A stretch of DNA of 32,688 bases. Source: Flavipsychrobacter sp. Lineage in GTDB: Bacteria; Bacteroidota; Bacteroidia; Chitinophagales; Chitinophagaceae. The notes under the pieces are model-generated. The model searched no databases, was not told where the DNA came from, and was given only the letters and a program-made list of their open reading frames with translations. Location: NCBI GenBank assembly GCA_025963465.1, contig JAOQAP010000236.1:1-32688 (forward strand). The letters run 5' to 3'. Made by a program: the position numbers and the translations under genes. Of this stretch, positions 3,001 to 32,688 are shown piece by piece. Positions within the stretch are counted from its first letter, which is position 1, and each line of letters opens with the position of its first letter.

Positions 3001-3290
3001 GTAGTATTGAGGCCAACGCAAACAGTTTTAGTGCCTGTTATTGCGGAAGGTGATGCGTTTACGGTAACAGGAGTGGTTACATAGCAACCTCCTAAAGTAA
3101 CGGTGTATGTAATAGTAGTCGTACCAGCAGCTACACCTGTAACAACACCCGTAGTTGATACAACAGTTGCTGTGGGTGTACCGGCACTGGTCCATGTACC
3201 CAGACTTGTAGCATCGGAAAGTGTAGTAGTAAGTCCCTGGCATACATTTGTTGTTCCGGTAATGGCTACGGGTACTACAGCTGTAAAGTC
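1..3290 (-). repeat. Tandem ~216-bp (72-aa) intragenic repeat array, at least 15 units
   Basis: The core marker (gcatcactNA, encoding SDAGG) recurs at 181, 397, 613, 826, 1042, 1258, 1471, 1687, 1903, 2119, 2335, 2551, 2773, 2989 and 3211. Spacing is 213, 216 or 222 bp, always a multiple of 3. The array continues off the left edge. Confidence 0.93.
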
Positions 3291-4979
3291 AGTGCCTACG
3301 CCAACGGCATACCATGCTTTGGTAACTGCGATCACCTCTGTAGCACAAGAACCGTACAGGGTAGTAGCGGCTGCAATAGACGCAGCCCTGCATGCTGTAT
3401 AGTCTGCCGTGCTGCTTAACAGCAACTCCGTATTATACGCTATATCGGCTGCTTTAGTGATGCCGATGCCTGATACCGAGAATACCTTACCCAGATCATT
3501 GGTACCGGAACCGCCCTGCCCGATAAGATAAAACCAATAATTTAATACTCCACTATTGGTATGCACGCCACAATAGTCGTTACCGGATACAGGGGTACAG
3601 CTAGTAACCGGGTACCATGAAGTACCTGTATAAGTATCCGGTTGGCCATGAGCATTAGGATTATCCATGCTCCTCAACGGGGTTGCACGTATCTCCTCCC
3701 CTATCTGGTAAGTACTTTTTGCTACTGCATCCACTTCATGGGGGTTACGGTAGTTTTCAATTACAGCACCCCAAATATCACTGAAGCCCTCATTCATACC
3801 ACCTGATTCAAGCTGGTAAACGAGGTCCGATGTGTACTGACAAATAGCATGACCCAGTTCGTGAGCGCAAACATCGAGGGAAACAAGCGGATCAAAACCT
3901 CCTGCTGATATACCGGAGCCGTCGCCATAGATCATTTCACTGCCATCCCAGAATGCATTGTTATAATTATTTGAGTAATGAACAAAGCTTTTTATATCGC
4001 TGTTCAAACCATCAAAGCTACCACGACCCTGTACATTCCACCAATAATCATAAACATTCTCCGCACCCCAGTGTGCATCTATTGCGGTATCAGTTGGCCA
4101 TGTAGTAGTTGCGTTAGTGATCTGTGCACCTGAAGTGGTACCGTGATTCAAATTATAAGTATAGATATTAGCCCCCCTGGTACCATCTATCAGGTAGTAC
4201 AGTCCACTTGATGAAAATGTTTCAAACGAAACCGTGCCGCTATATAAAGATGCACTTGTAGCTGTTGTCGTTTTGATCAGTGAATTTACCAGCAGTATTT
4301 TTCCTGTAGTAGCATCAACATATACCCTATCGTTGCTGAGTGGCTTTTCGGCATATACAATGAAGCGATAAGCAAGATGCAATTGATGATCGCGCTCACT
4401 TACCGGGCCAGACATATCTTCTATCCATACCAGGCTTCCTTTCGGGAAGTTAGTTGTATCCGGGTTTTTAGTGCTTGTTTTAAGGAAACGCTCCATGTTG
4501 GAGTCCTGCCACATGTAGGTTTCGGCGCCTATTTTATCAAGTGCATACTTCAATGCTGTTTCTTCACTTATTGCGGCAACCGATGCCTGACCAACCGGGA
4601 CATTATAAATGTTTGAAACAACAAAGTTCACCTTGTCCTCCTTAGAAGCCAGAGTAAATGAGCTGTACTCAACCTTGATACCTTTATAGAATTGAGCGTA
4701 ACGGTCCACAACCGTATTCTGTTTTGTATGGGTACTGCTTATCAACTGCAGTTTATCCGAGGCATCATTGATACCGGAATATTGCTCAAATATTTTCTGG
4801 GCGTCTGCAGGATGTATATCTGCGGATGCAGCAAAATTGATCTGCGTAGGTGTATTGTCTTTCTTATTTCTATCAATGGATAAAATGTTCTTATCCTCGC
4901 TTACTGCATTTTGCGCATATCCTGTTGCGGCGCAAAATGAGCATAGCATTGCCACTAAATAAAATATTTGTTTTTTCAT
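1..4979 (-). CDS. Secreted M4-family (thermolysin-like) metallopeptidase with C-terminal tandem Ig-like/Big-type repeats; C-terminus truncated by the window edge
   Basis: Minus-strand translation from ATG at 4979 (MKKQIFYLVAMLCSFCAATGYAQ, signal peptide) stays open to position 1. It has an FTP-like propeptide, HELGH plus GGMNEGFSD (M4 HExxH...E signature, ~3800-3870), then repeats of the type VCxGLTTTLSDAGGGxWxSxxTxVATVVSGTGVVTGVAAGTATITYTLGTGC. Not in the ORF track because there is no stop in the window. Confidence 0.95.
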   Translation of the reverse strand, partial: MKKQIFYLVAMLCSFCAATGYAQNAVSEDKNILSIDRNKKDNTPTQINFAASADIHPADAQKIFEQYSGINDASDKLQLISSTHTKQNTVVDRYAQFYKGIKVEYSSFTLASKEDKVNFVVSNIYNVPVGQASVAAISEETALKYALDKIGAETYMWQDSNMERFLKTSTKNPDTTNFPKGSLVWIEDMSGPVSERDHQLHLAYRFIVYAEKPLSNDRVYVDATTGKILLVNSLIKTTTATSASLYSGTVSFETFSSSGLYYLIDGTRGANIYTYNLNHGTTSGAQITNATTTWPTDTAIDAHWGAENVYDYWWNVQGRGSFDGLNSDIKSFVHYSNNYNNAFWDGSEMIYGDGSGISAGGFDPLVSLDVCAHELGHAICQYTSDLVYQLESGGMNEGFSDIWGAVIENYRNPHEVDAVAKSTYQIGEEIRATPLRSMDNPNAHGQPDTYTGTSWYPVTSCTPVSGNDYCGVHTNSGVLNYWFYLIGQGGSGTNDLGKVFSVSGIGITKAADIAYNTELLLSSTADYTACRAASIAAATTLYGSCATEVIAVTKAWYAVGVGTDFTAVVPVAITGTTNVCQGLTTTLSDATSLGTWTSAGTPTATVVSTTGVVTGVAAGTTTITYTVTLGGCYVTTPVTVNASPSAITGTKTVCVGLNTTLSDAGGGTWSTANTTIATVVSGSGVVSGVSAGTATITYKLSTGCTATTVVTVNPLPSAISGNTPVCVLSTVTLSDAGGGAWSTPNTTVATVVSGTGVVTGVAQGTATVTYTLGTGCQITAVVTVNPLPSAISAGTGNVCVSASTLTLSDAGGGTWSTANTTISTVVSGSGVVSGVAAGTATITYKLGTGCTATTIVTVNPLPSAISGNKFACPGTSTTLSDAGGGAWTSSTSSVATVVSGTGVVTGVAAGTTTITYTLGTGCLITTPVTINPLPSAISANTPVCVSANITLSDAGGGTWTTANTTIATVVLGSGVVSGVAQGTATITYTLATGCTTTAVVTVNPLPGAITGTGIACVGLTTTLTDAGGGAWTTANTTVATVVSGTGVVTGVSGGTATITYTLGTGCATTKVATINPLPGAINGPTSVCVGSSVTLSDAGGGAWASSNTTVATIGAGTGIVNGLVAGTTVITYTLPTSCLITSTVTVNSLPGAITGTTNVCVGLTTALTDAGGGAWTSSNTIFATVSGTGVVTGVAAGTATITYTLGVGCATNIQITVNPLPAAISGTKSVCAGLTTTLSDAGGGTWSTLNTTIATVVSGTGVVSGVAAGTATITYALATGCIITTVVTVNPLPSAISGTTQVCAGLTTTLSDAGGGAWTSGTTSVATVVSGTGVVTGVTTGTSVITYTLTTGCLTTAVVTVDPLPSAITGNTPVCVSSTIALSDVGGGTWSTAATVASVVSGTGVVTGVAAGTATITYKLATGCIATAVVTVNPLPSAISGAQIVCVGSSTTLSDAGGGTWTSGNTTVATIGLGTGIANGLVVGTAAITYTLGTGCAATTVVTVNALPTAITGTATVCSGLTTTLSNAGGGTWSSSTTSVATVGLSTGVVTGAVAGTATITYNAGVGCSVATTVTVYPLPSAISGTAFVCAGLTTALTDAGGGAWTSGNTTVATIGAGTGIVNGLVAGTSVITYTLPTGCIAVITATVNPLPAAISGST

Positions 4980-12386: not shown

Positions 12387-13115
12387 TCATCCCCATATGT
12401 ATTGCGTAGTTTGCACAACCGAGGTGACAACTATTACGATCAGCACAATATACCTGAAGACCTTCTCTGACGTATATTTCAAAATCACTTTACCCAGGTA
12501 GCTGCCAATAATACTTATGCCAATTAAGAAAGGAATGAGGACGACCAGGCTCTTTGGGAAATAATCGTTAGCAACATATACTACACTCCTGCTTACATCT
12601 ACCCCAAGATCTATAATTGCCGATGTCGCAATAAAAACATCTTTAGGCAGGTTGAATGCGGCGATAGTGATACCCCTGACAGCGCCACCTGTACCAACAA
12701 GCCCGGCTAAAAGCCCTGAAATACTTCCACCAGCTATTAAATTAAAATTTGTCTGCTTTAGCTTTTTATTGATGTTCACTATTAAATACACACTAAGCAC
12801 GACGAGTGCAAAATTCATTAACAGCTCCATTTTCTGAACCTGGATCTTTGTAGTGATCAATGCGCCAATCAAGACAAACAGTATAGCAGGTATCCCAAGC
12901 TTCAAGGCTATATCTTTATTAATACCTTTATTGAACAGCACTATTTTCGAAATATTGCTGAACACATGAAACACAGCGGTTACACCAAGCACTGTTTTAA
13001 AGTCAAAAAACACAGAAGCTAGTGGTACAAATAAAATAGAGGAGCCGAACCCGGACACTGTCCCGATAATTTCTGATAATAAAGCCAGCAATAAGAAAAT
13101 CGTATATTTTTCCAT
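12387..13115 (-). CDS. TSUP/TauE-SafE family membrane permease
   Basis: Polytopic; repeated GxxxGxGSS...P and GLLAGLVGTGGAVRG motifs of the sulfite exporter TauE/SafE (DUF81) family. Confidence 0.85.
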   Translation of the reverse strand: MEKYTIFLLLALLSEIIGTVSGFGSSILFVPLASVFFDFKTVLGVTAVFHVFSNISKIVLFNKGINKDIALKLGIPAILFVLIGALITTKIQVQKMELLMNFALVVLSVYLIVNINKKLKQTNFNLIAGGSISGLLAGLVGTGGAVRGITIAAFNLPKDVFIATSAIIDLGVDVSRSVVYVANDYFPKSLVVLIPFLIGISIIGSYLGKVILKYTSEKVFRYIVLIVIVVTSVVQTTQYIWG

Positions 13116-13182: not shown

Positions 13183-14592
13183 TTAAGCTCCGCCAAGCCC
13201 CACCTCTTCATGCAGTGAAGGAATCACTACATCCTGAAAGCCCTTTCGCAATAAGCGCTCGCGAAAGTTGACCTGTACATCATTTTCCCCATGTACTAAA
13301 AATAATTTCTTTACCATCTCCGGATCCTGGCAGGCCAGCCACTGACACATATCTTCATAGTCGCCGTGCGCGCTAAGGCTGCTAATTTCGGCGAGGGAGG
13401 CTTTAACGTCAAATCTCTTACCAAAAATACCTACATCACCATTATTATGCTTTAACCGTGCACCCAGAGATAATGGCTCACAGTACCCGGTAAGCAAAAT
13501 AGTATTCTTGGCATCTCCGATATTATTAGCTATATGGTGCTTCACCCTACCTGCTTCAGCCATACCAGATGCTGAAATAATAACGCATGGTTCTTCAATG
13601 TCGTTTAACGCAATAGAGTCTTTCACATCATTGATATACTTCAGTCCTTTAAAGGAAAAAACATCATGATCAGTTCTCAACAATTGCTGTACCTGTTTAT
13701 TAAAACAGTCAGGATACTTTTTAATAGTATCTGTGATTTTTATTGATAACGGACTGTCGACATAATAATTCAGCGGAGGAAGCCTGTTCTGCACCTCCAG
13801 CATATTCAACATATACAGTATCTCCTGGGTGCGGCCAAGACTGAATGCCGGCATAATAAGCTTACCCTTATTCTTCAGGCATGTTTGCACAATATGATTA
13901 AACATATCAGTGGATGCAGTCCTTTGCAGATCGTGCAGTTTATCGCCGTAAGTTGATTCCATGATGATATAATCAGCCTGGGGAAATGTATCCGGGGAGC
14001 GAAGCAGCATATCGCGATACCTGCCTATATCCCCGCTGAATGTGATACGTGTTTCCTTGCCACCTTCTCTTACTACAAGATTTACCGCAGCACTGCCGAG
14101 AATATGACCGCAATCTGTGAATAAGAGTTGAATGTCATTGTCAATTTTGTAATGCTCACCATATGGTATTGCTTCAAACAAAGGGAAAACATTCAGCGCA
14201 TCTTCTTCGGTATACAGTATCTCAACGGCTTCCCTGCCCTGCTTTTTTCTCTGCTTGTTGATGTACCGCACGTCCGCTTCCTGTATATGCGCAGAATCGA
14301 TCAGTAACAGCTTCGCGAGGCTGATAGTAGCCGGAGTACAATATATTTTTCCTTTATAACCATCTTTCACCAGTTTGGGCAGCAAGCCTATATGGTCGAT
14401 ATGTGCATGTGATATGATCACGTGATCTATTTCTGAAGGCTCAAAACCCCAGGTACTGTTCAGCGTAAGTGTTTCTTTGCCCAACCCCTGGAACATACCA
14501 CAGTCAAGGAGCACTTTTTTGTTTGGGTTTATGTGCAGGAGGTGCTTAGAGCCTGTTACTGTTCTGGCAGCGCCATGGAATGTTATTTTCAT
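13183..14592 (-). CDS. MBL-fold beta-CASP RNA-processing exonuclease/endonuclease-like protein
   Basis: MKITFHGAARTVTGSKHLL...LLDCGMFQG; SHAHIDHIGLLPKL (HxHxDH); GHILGSAAV; FSGDIGRYRD; MESTYGD; PAFSLGRTQEIL; IISASGMAEAGRVKHHI; SAHGDYEDMCQWL (beta-CASP plus RMMBL). Confidence 0.92.
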   Translation of the reverse strand: MKITFHGAARTVTGSKHLLHINPNKKVLLDCGMFQGLGKETLTLNSTWGFEPSEIDHVIISHAHIDHIGLLPKLVKDGYKGKIYCTPATISLAKLLLIDSAHIQEADVRYINKQRKKQGREAVEILYTEEDALNVFPLFEAIPYGEHYKIDNDIQLLFTDCGHILGSAAVNLVVREGGKETRITFSGDIGRYRDMLLRSPDTFPQADYIIMESTYGDKLHDLQRTASTDMFNHIVQTCLKNKGKLIMPAFSLGRTQEILYMLNMLEVQNRLPPLNYYVDSPLSIKITDTIKKYPDCFNKQVQQLLRTDHDVFSFKGLKYINDVKDSIALNDIEEPCVIISASGMAEAGRVKHHIANNIGDAKNTILLTGYCEPLSLGARLKHNNGDVGIFGKRFDVKASLAEISSLSAHGDYEDMCQWLACQDPEMVKKLFLVHGENDVQVNFRERLLRKGFQDVVIPSLHEEVGLGGA

Positions 14593-15407
14593 AATTGAGA
14601 TTGAATTTTGTTACTGAATGATAATTTTTGCGGGCCAAAAATAAAAATGACGGATATGCCCACTATAGTGATCAGCATGCCCATAATAGATACAATATGT
14701 TTATCAGCGGCAGGTGAAGTAAATGCGACATCTATCGTGGCGTGAAAAATAGCACATAGGAGAATGCTTCCTTTACTGGAATTAAATAACCAAGTCAGCA
14801 ATATTGAGCCTGTTAACAGGCTCAATATCCAGCCTGCAATATCTGCAGCACCCATATTGACATATCCCGGCCGATACAAGAATAACGGCAGATGCCAGCC
14901 AGCCCATATCAGGGTTAAAATAACCGATGCTTTAAGCGCATTAAATTTATCCTGCAATATGGGCAGGGCAAGTCCCCGCCAGCCAGTTTCCTCGCCTATA
15001 CCAAAAGTAACTATGTTATAAAAAATAACAGTTGCGATAGCCCATTGAGGGAACTCAGTGCTTTTACCCAACGGAGACAGGTTAACGTTTATACCAAAAT
15101 ACAAGTTACTGATCAACGAACTGATAATGTATAGTACAAAAGGACTTAATAAGCTTAGTAAGAAAAGGAAGATATTGCCCCAGTTCATTATTTTCTTTAA
15201 CAAACCGGCAAATTCTTTTTTACTGAAAATTAACGTAGTAACAAACGAGGCCAACATTGGGCCATAAGCCCCCAGAGCATGATTAAACGGAAGCTTTGGC
15301 AGAGCAGGCAATTCTATTGCCGGACCATACATAGGCAACCAAATAAGCCATGAGATGGCATAAGACAGGACAATGAATAAAGTTAATCGCTGAATACCCG
15401 GTTGCAT
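14589..15407 (-). CDS. CPBP-family intramembrane glutamic endopeptidase (ABI/CAAX protease-like)
   Basis: Polytopic protein with GEETGWRGLALPIL (EExxxR) and the downstream LIWAGWHLPLFLYRPGY motif. 4-nt overlap with the beta-CASP gene. Confidence 0.88.
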   Translation of the reverse strand: MQPGIQRLTLFIVLSYAISWLIWLPMYGPAIELPALPKLPFNHALGAYGPMLASFVTTLIFSKKEFAGLLKKIMNWGNIFLFLLSLLSPFVLYIISSLISNLYFGINVNLSPLGKSTEFPQWAIATVIFYNIVTFGIGEETGWRGLALPILQDKFNALKASVILTLIWAGWHLPLFLYRPGYVNMGAADIAGWILSLLTGSILLTWLFNSSKGSILLCAIFHATIDVAFTSPAADKHIVSIMGMLITIVGISVIFIFGPQKLSFSNKIQSQL

Positions 15408-15438: not shown

Positions 15439-15482
15439 CAAAGGTAGCCGGGGCCGGATTAAGCATTCCTGATTTGTATCAT
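15439..15482 (-). promoter_or_regulatory. FNR/CRP-like site plus -7 box driving CPBP-betaCASP (minus)
   Basis: Site ATGATACAAATCAG (minus, 15482-15469); box TACCTTTG (15446-15439) exactly 36 nt downstream (site start to box start). Confidence 0.65.
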
Positions 15483-15490
15483 GCCACAGA

Positions 15491-15534
15491 ATGACCTACG
15501 TCCTTTTTTACCTGTGCCTTATGCCGTCAATTTG
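15491..15534 (+). promoter_or_regulatory. FNR/CRP-like site plus -7-like box driving the MBL-rhodanese gene
   Basis: Site ATGACCTACGTCCT (15491-15504; one mismatch to TGAY-N4-RTCA); box TCAATTTG (15527-15534) at the same 36-nt offset. Confidence 0.5.
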
Positions 15535-15563: not shown

Positions 15564-16952
15564 ATGTACATCAAGCAACTTTATACCAATTGCCTGGCTC
15601 ATGCGGCCTATTATATAGAATCAGGAAAAGAAGTGGCTATCATAGATCCACTTAGAAACCCCGAGCCATACATGGCCTTGGCACACGAGAGAGGGGCAAC
15701 AATAAAATACGTGATGGAAACACATTTTCACGCTGACTTCGTATCGGGCCATATTGACCTCTCTAATAAAACAGGCGCAACAATAGTTTTCGGTCCTGAT
15801 GCAGCACCGGGCTATAAAGCTTATATAGCAACAGACGGTGAGCAATTGCCGTTAGGTAATGCGCACATCAAAGTAATACACACGCCGGGACATACCATAG
15901 AGTCAGCATGCTATTTACTGCTCGATGAAGCCGGCAAACCCAACTCTGTATTTACAGGAGATACCCTGTTCATAGGAGATGTGGGACGGCCTGACCTGCT
16001 GAGCGGCAATCTAAAAAAAGAAGAATTAGCGGCTATCATGTTCGAGTCGCTCAAAAAAATAAAAATGCTGCCAGACGAAATCACGGTGTACCCGGGACAC
16101 GGCGCCGGATCGGCCTGCGGAAAAAACATAGGCCCTGAATCACAATCGACCATAGGCCACGAGAAGCAATTTAACTATGCCCTTAAACTTAATGACAAAG
16201 ATTCATTTATCACAGCCATTACTACCGGTCAACCAATAATACCCGGTTACTTCTTTAGCGATGCGGCAATGAATAAATCCGGATATACCGGGTATGATGA
16301 AGTATTGCAAAAAAGCATGCAAGGTCTGTCAATAGATCAGTTCAAAGACATGCAGGCGAACGGAGCCACGGTATTAGATACACGGGATGCCCAGAGTTTT
16401 GCTGCTGCATTTGTTCCCGGGGCAATCAACGTAGGGCTAAGCGGCGATTTCGCAACATGGGTAGGTATATTTATTGCGCCTGACGCACAAATATTGCTGG
16501 TAACAGAACCGGGGAAAGAAGAAGAAGCTATAGAGCGTCTTGCGCGTATCGGCTATGACCATGTATCCGGCTACTTGCAGGGCGGAATGCATAGCTGGTT
16601 CACAAACAACCAAGGATATGAAAACATTCCAACGTTCGAAAGCCACACCATACAAGATGTAATAGAAGAAGGCTCATACAATCTGCTGGATGTGAGGAAC
16701 AGGAAAGAGGTGGCAAAAGACCGCATCACCGGATCCTTTCATATTCCTTTAAATGAGCTCATCACAAAATATACCAATATTGAAAAGAACAGTCGTTTGC
16801 TGATCTATTGTGCAGGTGGTTATCGCTCTATGATCGCTGCTTCGTTTTTACGATCAAAAGGATTCCATTTTGTGGCGAGTGTGGAAGGCGGAATAAACAA
16901 GGTAAGGAATAAGCGCCCCGAGATGATAGAAGCAGGCATGGAAACGGAATGA
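15564..16952 (+). CDS. MBL-fold persulfide dioxygenase-like hydrolase fused to two rhodanese domains (CstB-like architecture)
   Basis: METHFHADFVSGH, HTPGHTIESACYLL, FTGDTLFIGDVGRPDL, YPGHGAGSACG. First rhodanese-like domain lacks the catalytic Cys; second has LLIYCAGGYRSMIAASFL. Confidence 0.88.
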   Translation: MYIKQLYTNCLAHAAYYIESGKEVAIIDPLRNPEPYMALAHERGATIKYVMETHFHADFVSGHIDLSNKTGATIVFGPDAAPGYKAYIATDGEQLPLGNAHIKVIHTPGHTIESACYLLLDEAGKPNSVFTGDTLFIGDVGRPDLLSGNLKKEELAAIMFESLKKIKMLPDEITVYPGHGAGSACGKNIGPESQSTIGHEKQFNYALKLNDKDSFITAITTGQPIIPGYFFSDAAMNKSGYTGYDEVLQKSMQGLSIDQFKDMQANGATVLDTRDAQSFAAAFVPGAINVGLSGDFATWVGIFIAPDAQILLVTEPGKEEEAIERLARIGYDHVSGYLQGGMHSWFTNNQGYENIPTFESHTIQDVIEEGSYNLLDVRNRKEVAKDRITGSFHIPLNELITKYTNIEKNSRLLIYCAGGYRSMIAASFLRSKGFHFVASVEGGINKVRNKRPEMIEAGMETE

Positions 16953-16973: not shown

Positions 16974-17291
16974 ATGATCAGAAAAATAAAAAAACTCCTG
17001 GGAATAGCGCCTAAAGCAGATCTGAAGAAAATTATACAAAACGGAGCAATTGTAGTTGATGTCAGATCTCCTGGTGAATATGCCAGCGGGCATATAAAGG
17101 GTTCCCTGAATATCCCGGTGAGCCTGATTCCGGATCAAATGCACCAGCTAAAAAAGGATAAGGCAATTATTACCTGTTGCGCATCCGGTATAAGGAGCAA
17201 CACGGCAAGAACAATGCTCTTGTCAAACGGATTTACAGAAGTGTACAACGCCGGAAAGTGGAACAGATTATTGAAATATACTGATATATAA
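16974..17291 (+). CDS. Single-domain rhodanese-like protein
   Basis: VVDVRSPGEYASGHIKGSLNIPVSLI...AIITCCASGIRSNTARTML with active-site Cys loop. Confidence 0.88.
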   Translation: MIRKIKKLLGIAPKADLKKIIQNGAIVVDVRSPGEYASGHIKGSLNIPVSLIPDQMHQLKKDKAIITCCASGIRSNTARTMLLSNGFTEVYNAGKWNRLLKYTDI

Positions 17292-17384: not shown

Positions 17385-17428
17385 CTGATTTAAATCATTT
17401 TTCTGCTTACTGCAGCAACATACCTTCG
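17385..17428 (+). promoter_or_regulatory. FNR/CRP-like site plus -7 box upstream of the hemerythrin-like gene and ccoI
   Basis: CTGATTTAAATCAT (17385-17398; TGAT-N4-ATCA); TACCTTCG (17421-17428), offset 36 nt. Confidence 0.65.
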
Positions 17429-17442
17429 AAAAAAATACCAAA

Positions 17443-17997
17443 ATGGTCACAAAAGCATACGAAGAATATAGGAATATAGCATTGAAGCCTATTATAGAGA
17501 AACTTCAATCGGAGCATTATGACTCCATTGCAATGCTGTGCACAACATTGAAGAAGCAGTGCAATAAAATGCGTGAACTGGAAAAATCGGAATCGCCGCT
17601 TCAATATGTAGTATTATGCGAAAATGTGATCGCAGAAGTGGAACAGCATGTGACCAACAGAAGGTCTGTATACATTCCGTATGTCCACACGTTATCAGAT
17701 AAGGTAAAAGACAACCATAATTGCAGCAATTGTACCGGCACGTGTAAAATAAACCACGATATGCATATCATGGACCTGAATGCAACTAATGATACAATGG
17801 CAAAAGTGCTACACCGTCTACAAATGGCTACTTTACCACTTTACTCAGATACGCTGTACCCAGATGAATACAGGGTACTCCGTTCGGGAATGACCTTACT
17901 GGAAACAAGCCTCACTGAGCTATTCTTCCTGGAAAATAACTACCTGATACCAAAAATAGCAGAAGCACAAAAAAATATAAATGCCGGCAACAATTGA
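17443..17997 (+). CDS. Degenerate hemerythrin/RIC (YtfE/ScdA)-like protein with an inserted Cys cluster
   Basis: Pattern alignment to RIC: LQSEHYDS / EVEQHVTNRRSVYIPYV / HIMDLNATNDTMAKVLHRLQMAT / LETSLTELFFLENNYLIPKI. Several di-iron ligand positions are substituted; NCSNCTGTCKINHDMH insert. Confidence 0.55.
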   Translation: MVTKAYEEYRNIALKPIIEKLQSEHYDSIAMLCTTLKKQCNKMRELEKSESPLQYVVLCENVIAEVEQHVTNRRSVYIPYVHTLSDKVKDNHNCSNCTGTCKINHDMHIMDLNATNDTMAKVLHRLQMATLPLYSDTLYPDEYRVLRSGMTLLETSLTELFFLENNYLIPKIAEAQKNINAGNN

Positions 17998-20434
17998 AGC
18001 TGATATCGTCCAACCAGTAACACGTAAAAAAACACAGCCTACATGCTATCATTGCGGGCTAAGCTGCATTACTACCAACATTGCCATACAGGATAAGTAT
18101 TTTTGCTGCGAAGGATGCAAGCTCGTTTATGAAATTCTCAATGAGAACGACCTCTGTGACTACTACAAACTGCAGGTACACCCCGGAATATCACAGATAA
18201 AACCAATAAGGAACGACAAATATTCCTTCCTGGACAATGACGCCATAAGCAACAAATTATTCCGATTTACCAATGGCGACCTAACCATTGCTACGCTATA
18301 TATCCCTTCTGTTCACTGCAGCTCCTGTATGTGGCTGCTGGAACATTTAAACAGGATGGATGCCGGCATTACAGAAAGCAGGATCAGTTTTACTTCGAAA
18401 GAAGTCACCATTCATTTTTCGAGAAAAAAAACAAGCCTTCGTAAAATAGTAGAGTTGCTGACCACCATAGGATATGAACCATACATAAGCCTGGAAGATG
18501 CAAATGAAAAAGAAGCAAAATCATATAACAAACAACGCATCATAAAACTGGGTGTTGCCGGCTTCTGTTTTGGAAATATCATGATGATGAGCTTTCCTGA
18601 ATATCTGTCAGGAAAACCAGGCATAGGTACCGAATACACATACCTGTTCCGCTACCTGAACCTGCTGTTGTCGCTCCCGGTAATATTATATGCAGCAACA
18701 GAGTTCTACACTGCTGCGTGGGCAGGAATAAAACAAAAGATGCTGAATATTGATGCGCCCATAGTACTGGCACTTGCCATCACATTTTCGCGCAGCGTGT
18801 ATGAAATAGCAACCAATACGGGTGCAGGATACCTGGACAGTATGAGCGGAATAGTATTTTTCATGCTGGCCGGTAGAATAGTTCAGGAAAGAACTTACAA
18901 ATCATTATCCTTTACCAGGGACTACAAATCATACTTCCCTATTGCGGTAAACGTAAGAACTACGACAGGTATCATAAGCAAACAACTGCAGGACCTTAAA
19001 GAAAAAGACATCGTCATTTTACACAATGACGAAATAATACCTGCAGACTCTATAGTGCTTAATGACAATGCGCTGATCGACTACAGCTTTGTTACCGGAG
19101 AAGCGGAACCGGTAAAAGTGAAACGAGGTGAAACACTCTATGCCGGGGGTAAACAAACCGGAGAAGAATTGATCATACAGGTTGTAAAGCCAATATCAGG
19201 CAGCTATCTTACTTCCTTGTGGAACCATTATGCCTTTAAAAAAGACAAAACAGACAGTAATGACAAAGGCAGTATCATACATGTTTTAAGCAAGTACTTT
19301 ACTATAATTCTATTTAGCCTCGCATTACTGACAGCCACTTACTGGTACTTCCATGATCCTGCCAAGATCATCACCAGTGTATCTGCGATGCTCATTGTTG
19401 CCTGCCCCTGTGCACTGCTGCTCTCTGCAACATTTACCAACAGCAACATCCTGCGAATATTCGGCCTGAACGGACTATATCTCCGGGACGCAACAGTGAT
19501 CGAGCAAATAGCTGATATCGACCATATTGTTTTTGATAAGACTGGCACAATAACAAACGGCAGCAACAACCAAATAACAGTGTCGGGACACCAGCTAAGT
19601 GATGAGGAAAAAGACCTGGTGTGGTCTGTAGTACGACAAAGCAATCACCCTAACAGCAAAGCAATTGCAACATGGCTTAGAGAACGAAGGGCTGTGCGAC
19701 TTAGCGCATGGAAGGAGATTCCCGGGAAAGGTTTAATTGCCAGTTTCCGCGACACAATTATATTAATTGGCTCAGGTGAACACACGGGTATTTACACCTC
19801 GCGGGGTGCAGATAAAGCCACCCTATATATAAAGATCAATGAACAAGTAACGTCCATTCATCTGCAACCTGCATTCAGGGAGGCAATACCAGCGCTGATC
19901 GATAAGCTGAAAAGCATGTATTCATTGTCTCTGCTTTCCGGGGATAACGATAAGCAAAAAGCAGCTTTACAAAATTTATTCGGCACACAAAGCGAATTGT
20001 TATTCGAGCAAAAACCTGTTGATAAACTAAATTACATCCGGTCGTTACAAAAAGCAGGACGAAAAGTAATGATGATAGGTGACGGGCTAAATGACGCGGG
20101 AGCACTGCAACAGAGTAATGTTGGAATCACTCTTGCCGACAATATTAACAACTTTACTCCGGCATGTGATGTAATATTTGACGCAGGCAAAATGAACCGG
20201 CTCAATTCTTTGCTTACCCTGGCCAGGCAATCCAACTCCTTTGTAAGAGCGAGTTTTATTGTTTCTATCCTCTATAATGTAGCGGGGCTATATGTTGCTA
20301 TGCATGGACTTATGAAACCTATGGTGGCGGCTATACTCATGCCGTGCAGCACACTGAGCATTGTTATCATATCAAGCGGGCTCAGTAACTTTATCGCGTG
20401 GCGCAAAGGATTGCGCATTAACGGAGACAAATAA
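17981..20434 (+). CDS. ccoI: Heavy-metal translocating P-type ATPase, CcoI/FixI type (Cu export for cbb3 assembly)
   Basis: N-terminal CYHCGLSC...FCCEGCKLVYEIL cap, HMA-like CSSCMWLLEHL, CPCALLLSA, FDKTGTITNG, MIGDGLNDAGAL. Overlaps the preceding gene by 17 nt. Confidence 0.93.
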   Translation: MPATIEADIVQPVTRKKTQPTCYHCGLSCITTNIAIQDKYFCCEGCKLVYEILNENDLCDYYKLQVHPGISQIKPIRNDKYSFLDNDAISNKLFRFTNGDLTIATLYIPSVHCSSCMWLLEHLNRMDAGITESRISFTSKEVTIHFSRKKTSLRKIVELLTTIGYEPYISLEDANEKEAKSYNKQRIIKLGVAGFCFGNIMMMSFPEYLSGKPGIGTEYTYLFRYLNLLLSLPVILYAATEFYTAAWAGIKQKMLNIDAPIVLALAITFSRSVYEIATNTGAGYLDSMSGIVFFMLAGRIVQERTYKSLSFTRDYKSYFPIAVNVRTTTGIISKQLQDLKEKDIVILHNDEIIPADSIVLNDNALIDYSFVTGEAEPVKVKRGETLYAGGKQTGEELIIQVVKPISGSYLTSLWNHYAFKKDKTDSNDKGSIIHVLSKYFTIILFSLALLTATYWYFHDPAKIITSVSAMLIVACPCALLLSATFTNSNILRIFGLNGLYLRDATVIEQIADIDHIVFDKTGTITNGSNNQITVSGHQLSDEEKDLVWSVVRQSNHPNSKAIATWLRERRAVRLSAWKEIPGKGLIASFRDTIILIGSGEHTGIYTSRGADKATLYIKINEQVTSIHLQPAFREAIPALIDKLKSMYSLSLLSGDNDKQKAALQNLFGTQSELLFEQKPVDKLNYIRSLQKAGRKVMMIGDGLNDAGALQQSNVGITLADNINNFTPACDVIFDAGKMNRLNSLLTLARQSNSFVRASFIVSILYNVAGLYVAMHGLMKPMVAAILMPCSTLSIVIISSGLSNFIAWRKGLRINGDK

Positions 20435-20981: not shown

Positions 20982-21025
20982 CAAAAGTATATGGCATAGA
21001 AGCAGGGATAAATGACCATGGTCAT
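20982..21025 (-). promoter_or_regulatory. Perfectly palindromic FNR/CRP-like site plus consensus -7 box for the 20579-20962 gene
   Basis: ATGACCATGGTCAT (21012-21025) is a perfect 14-bp palindrome; minus box TACTTTTG (20989-20982) at 36 nt offset. Second degenerate site ATGATCTGTATTAT (minus, 21047-21034) is 22 bp upstream. Confidence 0.72.
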
Positions 21026-21135
21026 GCCGGAGGATAATACAGATCATAGGCGCAGCATCTGCATAATTATACTTTTGACATCCAATATCTGTTTAGCAAA
21101 GGTTATTCACTATGAATGGCATGCACTGAGACAGC

Positions 21136-21201
21136 ATGACAGGAAACATTTCAACTGCTGACCACAGTCAACAATATGATTTTGAGGCCTGACTATTTTT
21201 A
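21136..21201 (+). promoter_or_regulatory. FNR/CRP-like tandem sites plus -7-like box for the DUF2158-LOG-USP operon
   Basis: Proximal CTGACCACAGTCAA (21158-21171); box TATTTTTA (21194-21201) at 36 nt. Distal degenerate ATGACAGGAAACAT (21136-21149), 22 bp upstream. Confidence 0.62.
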
Positions 21202-21216
21202 CAAAAAAAAGATCTT

Positions 21217-21429
21217 ATGGAAATCAAATTTGTTCCGGGCGATAAAGTCAGGCTTATATCCGGCGGACCTGAAATGACCGTACGAGGCAAACACTACGAT
21301 GTGCTTGCCAATGAATACAGCGACAATATGTTTGATTGCATATGGTTCGCTAAAAATAAAGACGGTAAAGAAGAGGTGCATTATTGCCCGTTCCAGGCGG
21401 AAGAGCTTATCAAAACAAAAAACGCATGA
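21217..21429 (+). CDS. DUF2158/YodC-like small protein
   Basis: MEIKFVPGDKVRLISGGPEMTVRG... (GDxVxLxSGGPxMTV signature). Confidence 0.82.
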   Translation: MEIKFVPGDKVRLISGGPEMTVRGKHYDVLANEYSDNMFDCIWFAKNKDGKEEVHYCPFQAEELIKTKNA

Positions 21430-23851: not shown

Positions 23852-23917
23852 ATGACCATAATCATGTTTTAGTTTGAGCATGGTCATAAAACTCCTTTAT
23901 ATAACTAAATAGTTTTG
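23852..23917 (+). promoter_or_regulatory. Tandem FNR/CRP-like sites plus -7 box of the cbb3 oxidase (cco) operon
   Basis: Distal ATGACCATAATCAT (23852-23865); proximal TTGAGCATGGTCAT (23874-23887), 22 bp apart; box TAGTTTTG (23910-23917) at 36 nt from the proximal site. Confidence 0.75.
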
Positions 23918-23936: not shown

Positions 23937-24107
23937 ATGAGCGCATTGATAGTACTGGTCTTAGTTAGCCTATTGGTAGCCGGGTCGTTTCTTGCTGCTT
24001 TCATCTGGAGCGTTGATGACGACCAATATATTGACCAGGAAGGTGCTGCAATGAGAATATTATTTGAAGAAGATTTTCAGAAAAAAATAAACAACGTCAA
24101 AAAATGA
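23937..24107 (+). CDS. ccoS: cbb3-type cytochrome oxidase assembly protein CcoS
   Basis: [56 protein letters not shown] (56 aa, below the ORF-track cutoff); overlaps the ccoNO start by 4 nt. Confidence 0.88.
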
Positions 24108-26260
24108 ATATGGAGCTCACAAACATGCCTGAAGTAAATGACAAGTTCTTCTACGACAATAAAATCGTAAAGTGGTTTGCCTATGCCACGATCGTCTGGG
24201 GCATTGTAGGTATGCTTGCCGGTCTGCTTGCTGCCTTTCAGTTAGTATTCCCGGTATTGAATATGAATACCGCCGCGACAACCTTTGGAAGAGTAAGACC
24301 AGTGCATACCAACGCGATCATATTCGCATTTGTGGGCAACGGTATTTTTATGGGTGTCTATTATTCCCTGCAACGGCTCTGTAAGGCAAGGATGTTTAGT
24401 GACAAACTGAGCAAATTCCATTTCTGGGGGTGGCAGTCCATTATTGTACTGGCCGCGATAACATTGCTTGCCGGATACACATCAGGAAAAGAATATGCTG
24501 AACTGGAGTGGCCTATTGATATCCTGATCGCTCTTGTATGGGTAGCATTCGGGTGGAATATGTTTGGCACTATACTTAAAAGGCGTGAGCGTCACCTGTA
24601 TGTGGCGATCTGGTTCTATATAGCCACTTTCGTTACCGTTGCGATGCTTCATATTGTCAACTCCATCGAGATCCCTTTCTCCTGGATGAAATCATACTCA
24701 TGGTATGCAGGTGTGCAGGACGCCCTTGTGCAATGGTGGTACGGACATAATGCTGTTGCGTTCTTCCTTACAACCCCTTACCTGGGTCTTATGTATTACT
24801 TCCTGCCGAAGGCAGCAAACAGGCCGGTATATTCTTACAGACTGTCTATTATCCACTTCTGGGCTTTAATATTCCTGTATATATGGGCTGGGCCTCACCA
24901 TCTTCTTTACACAGCGTTGCCGGACTGGGCACAATCATTAGGTACCGTGTTTTCTATAATGCTGCTGGCTCCATCATGGGGTGGTATGCTAAACGGCCTG
25001 TTCACTTTACGTGGCGCATGGGATAAAGTAAGGGAAGATCCTGTTCTTAAATTTATGGTAGTAGCGGTTACCGCGTATGGTATGGCTACGTTTGAAGGGC
25101 CAATGCTGAGCCTGAAGAGTGTAAATGCAATCAGCCACTTTACTGACTGGACGATAGCGCACGTGCACGTTGGGGCATTAGGCTGGAACGGCTTCCTTAC
25201 TTTTGGTATTCTTTATTACCTGATCCCTAAAATATTCCGCACCAAGCTATATTCTGTAAAGCTGGCCAACAGGCACTTCTGGATAGGCACACTGGGCATT
25301 GTATTCTATGTGGTGCCTATGTACTGGGCAGGATTTATGCAGAGCCTTGCATGGAAAGAATTTACAGCGGAAGGAACGCTTAAATATCAGTTCCTCGACA
25401 CAGTAAAACAGATGCAGCCGTTCTATGCGATGCGCGGTGTAGGTGGTGTGTTATTCCTGATCGGTGCGCTCATCATGTGCTATAATTTATACAAAACAGT
25501 ACAGGCAGGCAACGCGCTGGACCAGGAACCGGCAGAAGCTGCACCATTAAGTAAGATATATGTAGCACATAGCACACAGCACTGGCACAGATGGATAGAG
25601 CGCCGCCCGATACAGCTACTTGTATTTAGCCTGGTCGTGGTAGCATTGGGTGGTATGATAGAAATGATCCCAACCTTCATGGTAAAGTCAAATATACCTA
25701 CAATAGCAAGCGTGAAACCATACACTCCGCTGGAATTACAGGGACGCGACATATATGTACGCGAAGGTTGTTACCTGTGCCATAGCCAGATGATCAGGCC
25801 ATTCAGGAGCGAGGTGATCCGTTACGGCGAATACTCTAAGGCCGGAGAGTTTGTCTACGACCACCCATTCCAGTGGGGCAGCAAACGTACCGGACCGGAC
25901 CTGGCAAGAATAGGCGGGAAGTATCCTGATAGCTGGCACTTCAACCATATGTATGAGCCATCGAGTATTTCTCCGGGAACTATAATGCCTAATTACCCAT
26001 GGTTATTTAACTCTAACATAGATACGTCACTGACCGGCGCTAAAATAAGAGCCATGATAACACTTGGCGTGCCTTATGAAAAAGGGTATGATAAAATTGC
26101 CAATGATGAGCTGATGAAGCAGGCTAACGGAATAGCAGCCAACCTGGCAAAAGAAAAAATAACTATTAAAAGCGACAGGGAGATCATAGCGCTGATAGCC
26201 TACCTGCAAAGAGTAGGCACAGACATCAAACTGGAACATAAAGTCACCTCTAATAACTAA
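24104..26260 (+). CDS. ccoN: cbb3-type cytochrome c oxidase, fused subunits I and II (CcoNO)
   Basis: Heme-copper oxidase core ([62 protein letters not shown]) followed by CcoO-like [33 protein letters not shown]. Confidence 0.96.
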
Positions 26261-29499: not shown

Positions 29500-30203
29500 T
29501 ACCCGTAGCTGCAATGGCTTTTTTAATGGGTCTCACAGGAAGCCTGCATTGTGCAGGCATGTGCGGCCCCATCATGCTGTTCATGCCATTTCATCATTTT
29601 TCCGGCTTTCGCAAGGCTGCGGCTATTGCATTATACCACCTCGCCCGCATATCAGTATATGCATCTATGGCTTTGATCGTTTATTCATTCAGAGAAGCCT
29701 TTAACCCAAAGATCCAGCAATTTATCTCTATAACACTGGGAAGCCTGTTCCTGGTAGCCGGAATTTTGTCATTCGTGCCGGTAAACAGGAAAATCAACAT
29801 AAAACTTCCCTGGGCAGAATTTGCAAAGCGGCAACTGAGCCATTTTATCGGCAACCCTACATTTTCATCTATTGCAATATCAGGTGTGCTCAACGGGATG
29901 CTCCCATGCGGGTTAGTTTACATGATGCTATCCGCCATACTGGTATTACATTCCCCTCTGCAGGCAATATCTTTTGCGTATTTTTTTGGCGCAGGTACAC
30001 TCCCAATGTTAATCAGCATCATTTTGTTCAGAAGTCGCATTAATCTGGGGCGAGATGCCCGCATAAAGGCCCTTACACCAATTATAGTATTCTCTTTCGG
30101 GTGTCTGTTCCTGTTAAGAGGCTTAAATCTTGGCATTCCTTATCTAAGCCCGAAAGTGACCATAACAAACGGACAGATGCACTCCTGCTGTCATAAAAAA
30201 TGA
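29496..30203 (+). CDS. Sulfite exporter TauE/SafE-like (DsbD_2-type) membrane protein associated with cbb3 biogenesis
   Basis: MGLTGSLHCAGMCGPIMLFMPF...YHLARISVYASMALIVY...GVLNGMLPCGLVYMMLSAI; CcoG-H-SafE synteny. Confidence 0.85.
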   Translation: MIPVAAMAFLMGLTGSLHCAGMCGPIMLFMPFHHFSGFRKAAAIALYHLARISVYASMALIVYSFREAFNPKIQQFISITLGSLFLVAGILSFVPVNRKINIKLPWAEFAKRQLSHFIGNPTFSSIAISGVLNGMLPCGLVYMMLSAILVLHSPLQAISFAYFFGAGTLPMLISIILFRSRINLGRDARIKALTPIIVFSFGCLFLLRGLNLGIPYLSPKVTITNGQMHSCCHKK

Positions 30204-30265
30204 TCGTAATCACGTGACTTCCTGATTTTAATCATGTTTTAGCACTCATTGACCTTCTAAATTTA
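30200..30265 (+). promoter_or_regulatory. Tandem FNR/CRP-like sites plus -7-like box of the histidine kinase / response regulator operon
   Basis: Distal ATGATCGTAATCAC (30200-30213); proximal CTGATTTTAATCAT (30222-30235), 22 bp apart; box TAAATTTA (30258-30265) at 36 nt. Confidence 0.7.
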
Positions 30266-30273
30266 TCTGTATT

Positions 30274-31989
30274 ATGCCCAATAAAAAGATAAATAAAAAG
30301 TCAGCAAGCAAATCAGGAGAAATGGGCTTACATTTAAGCATGCCGTTTACTACAAATAATGATACATTTCATGCTTTATTTAATTATGCGAGCATAGGAA
30401 TTCTCATCACCAATGCCAGCGGTGAGATACTGATGGCCAACAAATACATTGAGCAGCAATTCGGCTATGAGCTGGGAGAACTCATTGGCAAGAAAGTTGA
30501 GATATTGATACCGCCACGTTATGGCGCCAGGCATGTAAAGCACAGGGAGGGGTATAGCGAAAATCCGCACAGCCGCCCAATGGGCCTGGGCATGGAACTA
30601 TCCGGATTGAGAAAAGATGGTTCTGAGTTCCCGGTAGAGGTGAGCCTGGGGCATTATAAAATAGAAAACGACAACTATTCACTGGCGTTCATAAATGACA
30701 TTACCCAAAGAAAAGAAACCGAGCAGGCCGTTATTCAATTAAATGCGCACCTTGAAGAAAAAGTGAAAGAAGGTTCTCAATCTTTAGCTATTACTGTTGA
30801 ACAACTAAGCAGCCAGATAAAGGAAACAGAAAGAAAAGATGCCGAACTGGAACGTGTCAATACTTTTTTAAATAACATCTGGAACCATGCCGGCGCTATC
30901 ATATTTGTTTCTGACAAAGCAGGCCTGTTACAGTTTTTCAATCCATCGGCAGAGAAATGGCTGGGCTATAGCGCAGCAGAGGCAATAGGAAAGCTGAACG
31001 TGCTGGATTTTCACCTGGAAGAAGAACTTGTTCAAAAGGCCCATGAACTTTCAGGCAGATCTGGGCAAACGATAAGTTCCGGATTCGACGTTTTCGTAAC
31101 AGCTATGGCTTTAGGCGTCAATAATAACCAGGAGTGGCATTATGTAAGAAATGACGGCAGTACTTTTTTTGTATCGTTAAACATTACGCAGCTTAAGGAC
31201 AATCACAACAACGTGTCGGGCTACCTGGGCATAGCGATCGACATATCTGAAAAAAAGAAAGCGGAAACGGAGCTGAGAGCTGCTCTTGAGAAAGAAAAAG
31301 AGCTGAACGAGCTGAAATCCCGTTTTGTATCAATGGCATCCCATGAATTCAGAACGCCTTTGAGTGCCGTATTATCTTCGGCATACCTGCTATCAAGATA
31401 CGAGAAAACGGAAGAGCAACCTCAGCGGGAAAAACACATACAGAGGATCGTTTCTTCGGTAACATCACTTACAGAAATACTGAATGATTTTCTTTCTGTC
31501 GGGAAAATTGAAGAAGGAAATATTGAAGCCAACTACAAAGAATACGATATTAAAGAACAAATGCACGAAATAGTGCAGGAAGTGCAGCATCTGCTAAAAA
31601 AAGAACAAACCATATCGTACCAACATAACGGCACTACTTCATCAGTATACATGGATGCGTCCATGATGAAGCATATTGTGATCAATCTGCTTTCCAATGC
31701 GATCAAGTTTTCTAGTGAGCAATCCATCATAGAACTACTTACCGAAACAACAAAAGGCAAACTAGCTTTATCTGTAAAAGACTATGGCATAGGAATACCT
31801 GAAGAAGATATACATAACTTATCGAAGCGCTTTTTCAGATCTTCTAACGTTACAAATATACAAGGCACGGGGTTGGGCTTACATATAGTAAGCAAGTACG
31901 CAGAGCTGATGAATGGCATTATCAACTGTAAAAGCGAATTAGGCACAGGAACAAAGTTTACAATCACGTTTGCAAACAACAAACCATAG
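30274..31989 (+). CDS. PAS-PAS sensor histidine kinase (cytosolic)
   Basis: Two PAS domains (…LAFINDITQRKETE, …LGIAIDISEKKKAE), HisKA MASHEFRTPLSAVLSSAYLL, HATPase VINLLSNAIKFS, DYGIGIPEEDIHNLSKRFFRSSN, GTGLGLHIVSKYAELMNG. Confidence 0.95.
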   Translation: MPNKKINKKSASKSGEMGLHLSMPFTTNNDTFHALFNYASIGILITNASGEILMANKYIEQQFGYELGELIGKKVEILIPPRYGARHVKHREGYSENPHSRPMGLGMELSGLRKDGSEFPVEVSLGHYKIENDNYSLAFINDITQRKETEQAVIQLNAHLEEKVKEGSQSLAITVEQLSSQIKETERKDAELERVNTFLNNIWNHAGAIIFVSDKAGLLQFFNPSAEKWLGYSAAEAIGKLNVLDFHLEEELVQKAHELSGRSGQTISSGFDVFVTAMALGVNNNQEWHYVRNDGSTFFVSLNITQLKDNHNNVSGYLGIAIDISEKKKAETELRAALEKEKELNELKSRFVSMASHEFRTPLSAVLSSAYLLSRYEKTEEQPQREKHIQRIVSSVTSLTEILNDFLSVGKIEEGNIEANYKEYDIKEQMHEIVQEVQHLLKKEQTISYQHNGTTSSVYMDASMMKHIVINLLSNAIKFSSEQSIIELLTETTKGKLALSVKDYGIGIPEEDIHNLSKRFFRSSNVTNIQGTGLGLHIVSKYAELMNGIINCKSELGTGTKFTITFANNKP

Positions 31990-31993
31990 CGAA

Positions 31994-32688
31994 ATGAAAA
32001 CAATTCTGGTAATAGAAGACAATGAAGATATAAGGGAAAATGTAGAAGAGATACTAACACTGTCTGGCTATAATGTATTGACGGCACCAAACGGGAAAGA
32101 AGGCGTAGATACTGCTCAAAAAAACATTCCGGATCTTATCATTTGTGACATTATGATGCCCGGCATTGACGGCTACGGCGTATTACACGTACTGCATAAA
32201 GACCCGCAAACACAGAATATTCCTTTTATCTTTCTTACTTCTAAAAGTGAAAGAGGCGATTTCAGGGCAGCAATGGAGATGGGTGCGGATGACTACATAA
32301 CAAAACCTTTTTCGGGCAATGAACTACTTAATGCTATAGAAAGCAGGCTAAAAAAGAATGAGATCATTAAGAAAAATTTTTCTGCTGACCTACAAGGATT
32401 GAATGAACTGAGATCTTCAATAAGCAACAATAAAACACTGGAAGAACTTACCGCGGAAAGCAATGTAAACGGCTATAAGAAAAAACAAGTAATTTATAAG
32501 CAAGCCAATCATCCGCATTACCTGTTCTACATAGTGAAAGGGAAAGTAAAAACTTTCAAAACACATGAAGATGGAAAAGATCTTGTTATAGACCTGTATA
32601 ACGAAGGAGATTTTTTTGGCTATACTACCCTCCTTGAAAGTGCTATTTATAAGGAAACCGCAGAAGCAATTGAAGAAACCGAACTGGC
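31994..32688 (+). CDS. Response regulator receiver fused to a Crp/Fnr-type cyclic-nucleotide-binding-like domain; C-terminus truncated by window edge
   Basis: MKTILVIEDNEDIRENVEEILTLSGYNVLTAPNG...DLIICDIMMPGIDGYG...TSKSE...GADDYITKPFSGNELLNAIESRL, then KKQVIYKQANHPHYLFYIVKGKVKTFKTHEDGKDLVIDLYNEGDFFGYTTLLES (Crp-like beta-roll). Not in ORF track because it runs off the edge. Confidence 0.9.
   Translation, partial: MKTILVIEDNEDIRENVEEILTLSGYNVLTAPNGKEGVDTAQKNIPDLIICDIMMPGIDGYGVLHVLHKDPQTQNIPFIFLTSKSERGDFRAAMEMGADDYITKPFSGNELLNAIESRLKKNEIIKKNFSADLQGLNELRSSISNNKTLEELTAESNVNGYKKKQVIYKQANHPHYLFYIVKGKVKTFKTHEDGKDLVIDLYNEGDFFGYTTLLESAIYKETAEAIEETEL

Follow-up and report, generated by a model that had tools for sequence, protein, structure and literature searches.

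Two Crp-type dyads 22 bp apart form a mirror-symmetric, putatively bidirectional promoter in Flavipsychrobacter and belong to a promoter class that recurs in Chitinophagaceae

Results

Two dyads and two boxes lie between divergent CPBP and MBL-rhodanese genes

The window that we analyzed is a stretch of 32,688 nucleotides (G000:C208) from the genome of a Flavipsychrobacter sp., an assembly of 4.18 Mb in 277 contigs. Near its middle, genes assigned by Pfam run in opposite directions from an intergenic region that carries the sites considered here:

12387-13115, minus strand: TauE gene, after the beta-CASP MBL gene on the same strand
13183-14592, minus strand: beta-CASP MBL gene, after the CPBP gene on the same strand
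14589..15407, minus strand: CPBP (Rce1-like) membrane protease gene, 272 aa
15439..15446, minus strand: -7 box of the CPBP promoter, TACCTTTG (forward letters CAAAGGTA), a perfect TAnnTTTG
15469..15482, no strand: left dyad cTGATTTGTATCAt, letters CTGATTTGTATCAT; the -41.5 (proximal) site of the minus gene and the -63.5 (distal) site of the plus gene
15491..15504, no strand: right dyad aTGACCTACGTCCt, letters ATGACCTACGTCCT, with one mismatch in its core; the proximal site of the plus gene and the distal site of the minus gene
15527..15534, plus strand: -7 box of the MBL-rhodanese promoter, TCAATTTG, one mismatch against TAnnTTTG
15564..16952, plus strand: MBL-fold gene, 462 aa, two rhodanese domains
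16974-17291, plus strand: rhodanese gene, after the MBL-rhodanese gene

A sequence-only reading of this DNA had placed two dyads 22 bp apart between the divergent genes, and it proved correct to the base: read from the sequence, TGATTTGTATCA (left) and TGACCTACGTCC (right) have their centres at 15475.5 and 15497.5, a spacing of exactly 22 bp. The equal distance of about 36 nt from dyad to box that it had claimed for both sides was borne out as well, at 36.5 nt from each dyad centre to the last base of its own -7 box, and because this distance is the same on the two sides the block from 15439 to 15534 (96 bp) is geometrically symmetric. The spacing and the shared distance together give each site a proximal role at one gene and a distal role at the other, and with these roles swapping by direction one pair could serve both the CPBP gene (minus) and the MBL-rhodanese gene (plus).

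The elements themselves are of unequal quality, in the way that had been described: the minus box is perfect, and the right dyad and the plus box each have one mismatch. The plus box TCAATTTG lacks the A of TA, with its TTTG perfect and its register exact; the left dyad has a perfect core, and the outermost pair of its 14-mer (C..T) is non-complementary. In both directions the block thus presents an in-register box (0 and 1 mismatch, respectively) with a gene start shortly 3′ (272 aa and 462 aa). The predicted +1 of the CPBP promoter is 15434 (minus strand), giving a leader of 27 nt, and that of the MBL-rhodanese promoter is 15539 (plus strand), giving a leader of 25 nt, with 105 bp between the two predicted start sites.

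The beta-CASP MBL protein encoded at 13183-14592 scored 371 bits against a type VII CRISPR Cas14 model, below the cut-off of 800.

Dyad pairs in the window keep one spacing and one box register

Scanning the whole window for dyad pairs with at most one mismatch over both dyads combined returned five pairs at 22 bp (15470/15492, 21013/21035, 21137/21159, 23853/23875 and 30201/30223). The other spacings between 12 and 52 bp gave no pair, and those of 53 and 56 bp gave one each. In all five 22-bp pairs the -7 box stands at the identical register and has no more than one mismatch. Single one-mismatch dyads were not enriched over the window (53, versus 47.8 expected from shuffled sequence), such that one lone site carries little meaning; the significance rests in the spacing of the pair and the register of the box. 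Besides the pair at 15439-15534, the sites and their neighbors are as follows:

17386..17397, no strand: single dyad TGATTTAAATCA, followed by the 17443 ORF and the gene for a CcoI/FixI-type metal ATPase (17981-20434)
17421-17428: box TACCTTCG of this single dyad, in the same register as in the pairs
20982..21077, no strand: second reciprocal divergent promoter, with dyads at 21013-21024 and 21035-21046
20989-20982 and 21070-21077: boxes TACTTTTG on both sides of the second reciprocal promoter, perfect
21137..21170, plus strand: dyads 22 bp apart, in-register box TATTTTTA at 21194-21201, then a DUF2158 gene at 21217-21429
23853..23886, plus strand: dyads 22 bp apart, perfect box TAGTTTTG at 23910-23917, then the cbb3 oxidase cluster
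24104-26260: CcoNO fusion gene of the cbb3 oxidase cluster
30201..30234, plus strand: dyads 22 bp apart, each of them perfect, box TAAATTTA at 30258-30265, then a histidine kinase gene

The second reciprocal promoter (20982-21077) lies 5.5 kb from the block at 15439-15534 and is flanked by a 127-aa gene (minus strand, no Pfam family) and the DUF2158 gene region. The perfect reciprocal promoter of the 127-aa gene is kept in another genome (G227, L209), where the partner gene is a different one. Elsewhere in the window, positions 85-3402 form a repetitive region, with proline-rich ORFs repeated in overlapping frames and long antisense ORFs.

The 22-bp pair and its box register recur across the family

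The source genome has nine 22-bp pairs, versus none for a reversed-pattern control. When the spacing was left free, exact pairs in this genome fell twice at 22 bp and once at 37 bp, matches too few for use alone. Across 150 genomes of the family the count was 1184 pairs at 22 bp versus 55 for the reversed control, and 400 kb of loci chosen without regard to spacing held 15 pairs at 22 bp versus a mean of 0.43 per other spacing. Eight further genomes of the same genus contributed 191 pairs (5 in the control), with two of these genomes carrying 61 and 68.

The box register was equally sharp. Among 120 pairs from relatives, fetched without regard to boxes, a perfect TAnnTTTG stood at the 36.5-nt register 38 times versus a background of 0.11 per position, and near-perfect boxes stood there 81 times (81 of 240 pair sides) versus a background of 2.3; a second, smaller peak lay 22 bp beyond the main register, as expected of triple arrays. 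Where the gene context was one-sided, the box lay toward the gene in 31 of 60 cases and away from it in 7 of 60. When 79 oriented pairs were aligned into a metapromoter, TGAYnnnnRTCA came out at -69..-58 and again at -47..-36, together with the -7 box, in which the A of TA is nearly invariant (0.99). No -33 element appears in this metapromoter, which suggests activator dependence.

This numbering follows from a mapped Flavobacterium transcriptome, in which the same -7 box occupies -12 to -5 (PMC9723704), placing the dyad centres at -41.5 and -63.5. With start sites predicted from the Flavobacterium box placement, the dyad at about -41.5 is at the class II Crp/Fnr position, and the dyad at -63.5 would be an adjacent upstream site next to it. 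The TAnnTTTG motif of Bacteroidota primary-sigma promoters is present on both sides of the locus, perfect on the minus side and with one mismatch on the plus side, and is enriched family-wide. In E. coli, class II/III promoters of CRP and FNR have a dyad at -41.5 with another dimer bound upstream of it, and they need no strong -35/-33 element. The promoters described here share with them the Crp-type dyad centred at -41.5 and the provision for a second dimer upstream, but their second site keeps a fixed distance of exactly 22 bp upstream (-63.5) where the E. coli promoters use spaced class I positions, their box is the Bacteroidota -7 box, and the candidate regulator has a receiver domain.

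The reciprocal layout is a real minority form

The proposal that one pair of sites serves both directions stood in part: the geometry is real and recurs in the family, but most pairs are one-sided. The 120 unbiased pairs had an in-register box on one side in 75 cases, on both sides in 3 and on neither in 42, and one box in register with the other one shifted was seen between 0 and 3 times for any given shift under two ways of counting. A search of 399 genomes for the full 96-bp mirror pattern, allowing up to 3 mismatches over the 96 bp, found 268 matches in 150 genomes and none for the reversed control. We judged this control too weak for a reciprocal claim and added one in which one box was moved by 5 bp, which gave 158 matches in both orientations, or 79 per orientation. 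The reciprocal pattern exceeds this control about threefold: a real core remains once the many weak matches that belong to the background are set aside.

This minority form recurs in other genera. A reciprocal promoter between genes for an Rrf2-family regulator and a small cytochrome c is conserved in three genera (L142, L144, L149, L150 and L158), with boxes that are perfect or nearly so, and another (L160) lies between a gene for a PAS kinase resembling the window's own and a divergent 126-aa gene. The expectation that both dyads would be conserved in the orthologous intergenic region fared less well. We found no orthologous divergent region around orthologues of the MBL gene, which sit downstream of paa genes or in tandem, and in such contexts conservation of both dyads has no place to appear. 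The orthologues in G091, G271, G378, G227 and Flavipsychrobacter are behind paa genes and lack the pair, and the one in G174 (L175) has a 22-bp pair, a weak in-register box GCTATTTG and a codirectional upstream gene in place of a divergent partner. The MBL protein has its closest named-genome relative in a Flavipsychrobacter stenotrophus MAG (68% identity), and among 11 named-genome relatives those from outside the family lacked a 22-bp pair in the 400 bp that precede the MBL gene.

It is possible, if on balance unlikely, that only the minus promoter, that of the CPBP operon, is real and of the one-sided tandem type, with the plus box TCAATTTG a coincidence and the MBL-rhodanese gene expressed from elsewhere. 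The preponderance of one-sided pairs in relatives (75/120, with 3/120 two-sided), the 79 matches per orientation that survive in the shifted-box control, and the loss from the plus box of an A that is nearly invariant elsewhere (0.99) are all consistent with such a promoter. Against it stand the exact register of the plus box, its perfect TTTG and its 25-nt leader to a good gene start, as well as the 22-bp pair and weak in-register box of the G174 orthologue and the fully perfect second reciprocal promoter only 5.5 kb away.

A REC-Crp fusion protein is the likeliest binder of the dyads

The last genes of the window, continued on a second contig of the same genome, encode a histidine kinase and a Crp-type regulator:

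30274..31989, plus strand: histidine kinase gene with two PAS domains, HisKA and HATPase_c, behind the 22-bp pair 30201..30234
31994..32688, plus strand: N-terminal part (REC and cNMP_binding) of a REC-cNMP-HTH_Crp fusion regulator, cut by the contig end at 32688
G000:C60:40057-40412: HTH_Crp_2 part of the fusion regulator, at the contig end

Aligned with a 352-aa protein of the same genus, the two regulator halves fit with about three residues missing, and with the gene split in this way over two contig ends the window contig and C60 very likely adjoin. On C60 a universal-stress-type gene (281 aa, L005 409-1254) lies 3′ of the regulator part. The fusion regulator is the only HTH_Crp_2 gene found in the source genome, whose three other Crp-like cNMP proteins are short and have no recognised HTH_Crp_2. 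None of the best 25 NCBIfam models reaches its cut-off for the fusion regulator, and the 4Fe-4S cysteine set of FNR is absent from it, with one Cys in the 349 residues read.

The cbb3 oxidase genes are followed by the histidine kinase gene and then by the fusion regulator gene, and the adjacency and order of kinase and regulator are kept in 6 of 6 loci read. For the first PAS domain of the kinase the best PDB matches are FixL heme PAS domains (8e-13); the heme histidine is aligned and the FixL arginine is absent, and we regard heme binding by this domain as a candidate property, a lead suggested by the alignment.

Pair number follows the regulator. The 111 of 150 genomes that have a close homologue (E no higher than 1e-20) contain a mean of 10.0 pairs, compared with 1.9 in the other 39 (p 8e-14 by a Fisher test, which ignores relatedness), and the reversed controls are equal in the two groups (0.37 with the homologue and 0.36 without it). 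Within genera, 8 contrasts between presence of the homologue and pair number agree, 1 goes against and 2 are ties (sign test, p 0.04). Some genomes have pairs despite having no close REC-Crp homologue (12 in G089, 8 in G067 and 7 in G081). Taken from these sequence comparisons, the fusion regulator appears to be the likeliest binder of the dyads.

That the dyads belong instead to another Crp/Fnr-type protein, for example one of the three short cNMP proteins without recognised HTH_Crp_2, we consider improbable. Such cNMP genes are present in the source genome, and pairs do occur in some genomes without a close REC-Crp homologue, but the only recognisable Crp-type HTH of the source genome is in the fusion protein, whose gene is in the same cluster and tracks pair number across as well as within genera.

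Discussion

We propose, with a probability of roughly two in three, that the block at 15439-15534 is a bidirectional activator-dependent promoter whose dyad pair is bound by the REC-cNMP-HTH_Crp regulator, which is probably phosphorylated by the FixL-like kinase. The sequence statistics establish the sites, their spacing, register and recurrence, and the association with the regulator gene; that this protein binds them and is phosphorylated, that oxygen is the signal, and that both directions are active at this locus is inferred. Each TGAYnnnnRTCA dyad would hold one dimer of the fusion regulator. Of these, the proximal one would take up the class II position (-41.5) and act in place of a -33 element, and the dimer at -63.5, two helical turns further up, could supply a second contact of the class I type or bind cooperatively. 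The adjacent FixL-like PAS kinase would probably phosphorylate the regulator under low oxygen or a related redox signal, in which case both genes would join the cbb3 oxidase regulon. The plus side is expected to be the weaker one, and with its weak right dyad and weak box it may be silent or driven otherwise.

Alternatively, dimers at the two sites might make the pair a switch element that renders the two promoters mutually exclusive. The predicted start sites, 15434 and 15539, would be a tight fit for two holoenzymes that also make upstream contacts, and at 105 bp apart the polymerases would abut, which could produce such exclusion. The proximal dyad is nonetheless at -41.5, the classical activating position, and the lack of a -33 element suggests activator dependence; we therefore find a switch quite improbable, and the mutual exclusion that it entails would in any case be compatible with activation. 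A functionless chance arrangement, for which one might point to single one-mismatch dyads being as frequent as in shuffled sequence, is very improbable given the spacing, register and recurrence tests, which rule out chance as the origin of this promoter class.

Parts of the proposed bidirectional promoter have precedents. A single CRP target is reported to activate divergent promoters (El-Robh and Busby 2002, as cited in PMC5434802); as that work is represented in the citing paper, its target resembles ours in that a Crp-type site serves two divergent promoters, and it differs from the two role-swapping sites in a 96-bp mirror block described here, which are natural and recurrent. In rhizobia, a FixL-FixJ-FixK cascade leads to cbb3 oxidase through an anaerobox, TTGAT-N4-ATCAA (PMC7888657, PMC4999443). 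Our candidate pathway likewise comprises a FixL-related PAS kinase, a Crp/Fnr-type regulator, cbb3 oxidase targets and a near-identical dyad. Unlike in rhizobia, the roles of FixJ and FixK appear to be merged in one REC-cNMP-HTH_Crp protein, with no separate FixJ-type regulator seen in the cbb3/kinase gene cluster, and the FixL arginine is not conserved in the first PAS domain. The similar dyad type and the low-oxygen-type targets also recall E. coli FNR, but without the 4Fe-4S cysteine set the regulator would receive its signal by phosphorylation.

Class II Crp/Fnr promoters are thus known, as are a single CRP target that activates in both directions and the FixL-FixJ-FixK route of rhizobia. 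In a literature that excluded most subscription journals, we found no earlier description of the fixed 22-bp two-dimer code, of its mirror-symmetric use or of the merged REC-Crp regulator in Chitinophagaceae. The same non-exhaustive search, which covered few subscription journals, turned up nothing relevant on tandem 22-bp sites, on REC-Crp regulators in Bacteroidota or on the motif of such a regulator, and no low-oxygen-type regulon of this kind for the family. A meta-regulon study worked with matrices limited to E. coli FNR/CRP, DNR, NnrR and Bacteroides MalR (PMC8510549).

For the family as a whole, we give even odds to a wider proposal: that Chitinophagaceae use a compressed FixL-FixJ-FixK pathway, consisting of a PAS kinase and one REC-Crp protein, that reads a rigid two-dimer code (-41.5/-63.5, 22 bp), and that boxes on both sides of the pair turn this code into a symmetric two-way promoter. 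Such a code would give a large bacterial family a concrete cis-code for controlling genes of the low-oxygen type, and it comes with a named candidate regulator. The natural mirror-symmetric promoters, in which two activator sites would swap roles with direction, allow one to ask whether one activator pair serves two polymerases at once.

The reach and the variants of the pair can be glimpsed in other genomes. In a Cyclobacteriaceae MAG and in Chryseotalea (L067 and L068), single TGAYnnnnRTCA dyads upstream of MBL genes are found with other spacings (24 and 38 bp), suggesting that the 22-bp rule may stop at the family. Triple dyad arrays occur in G025, G124 and G332, and in the last of these a row of four dyads in 22-bp steps is present (L237 879-967; G332:C39:25778-25855).
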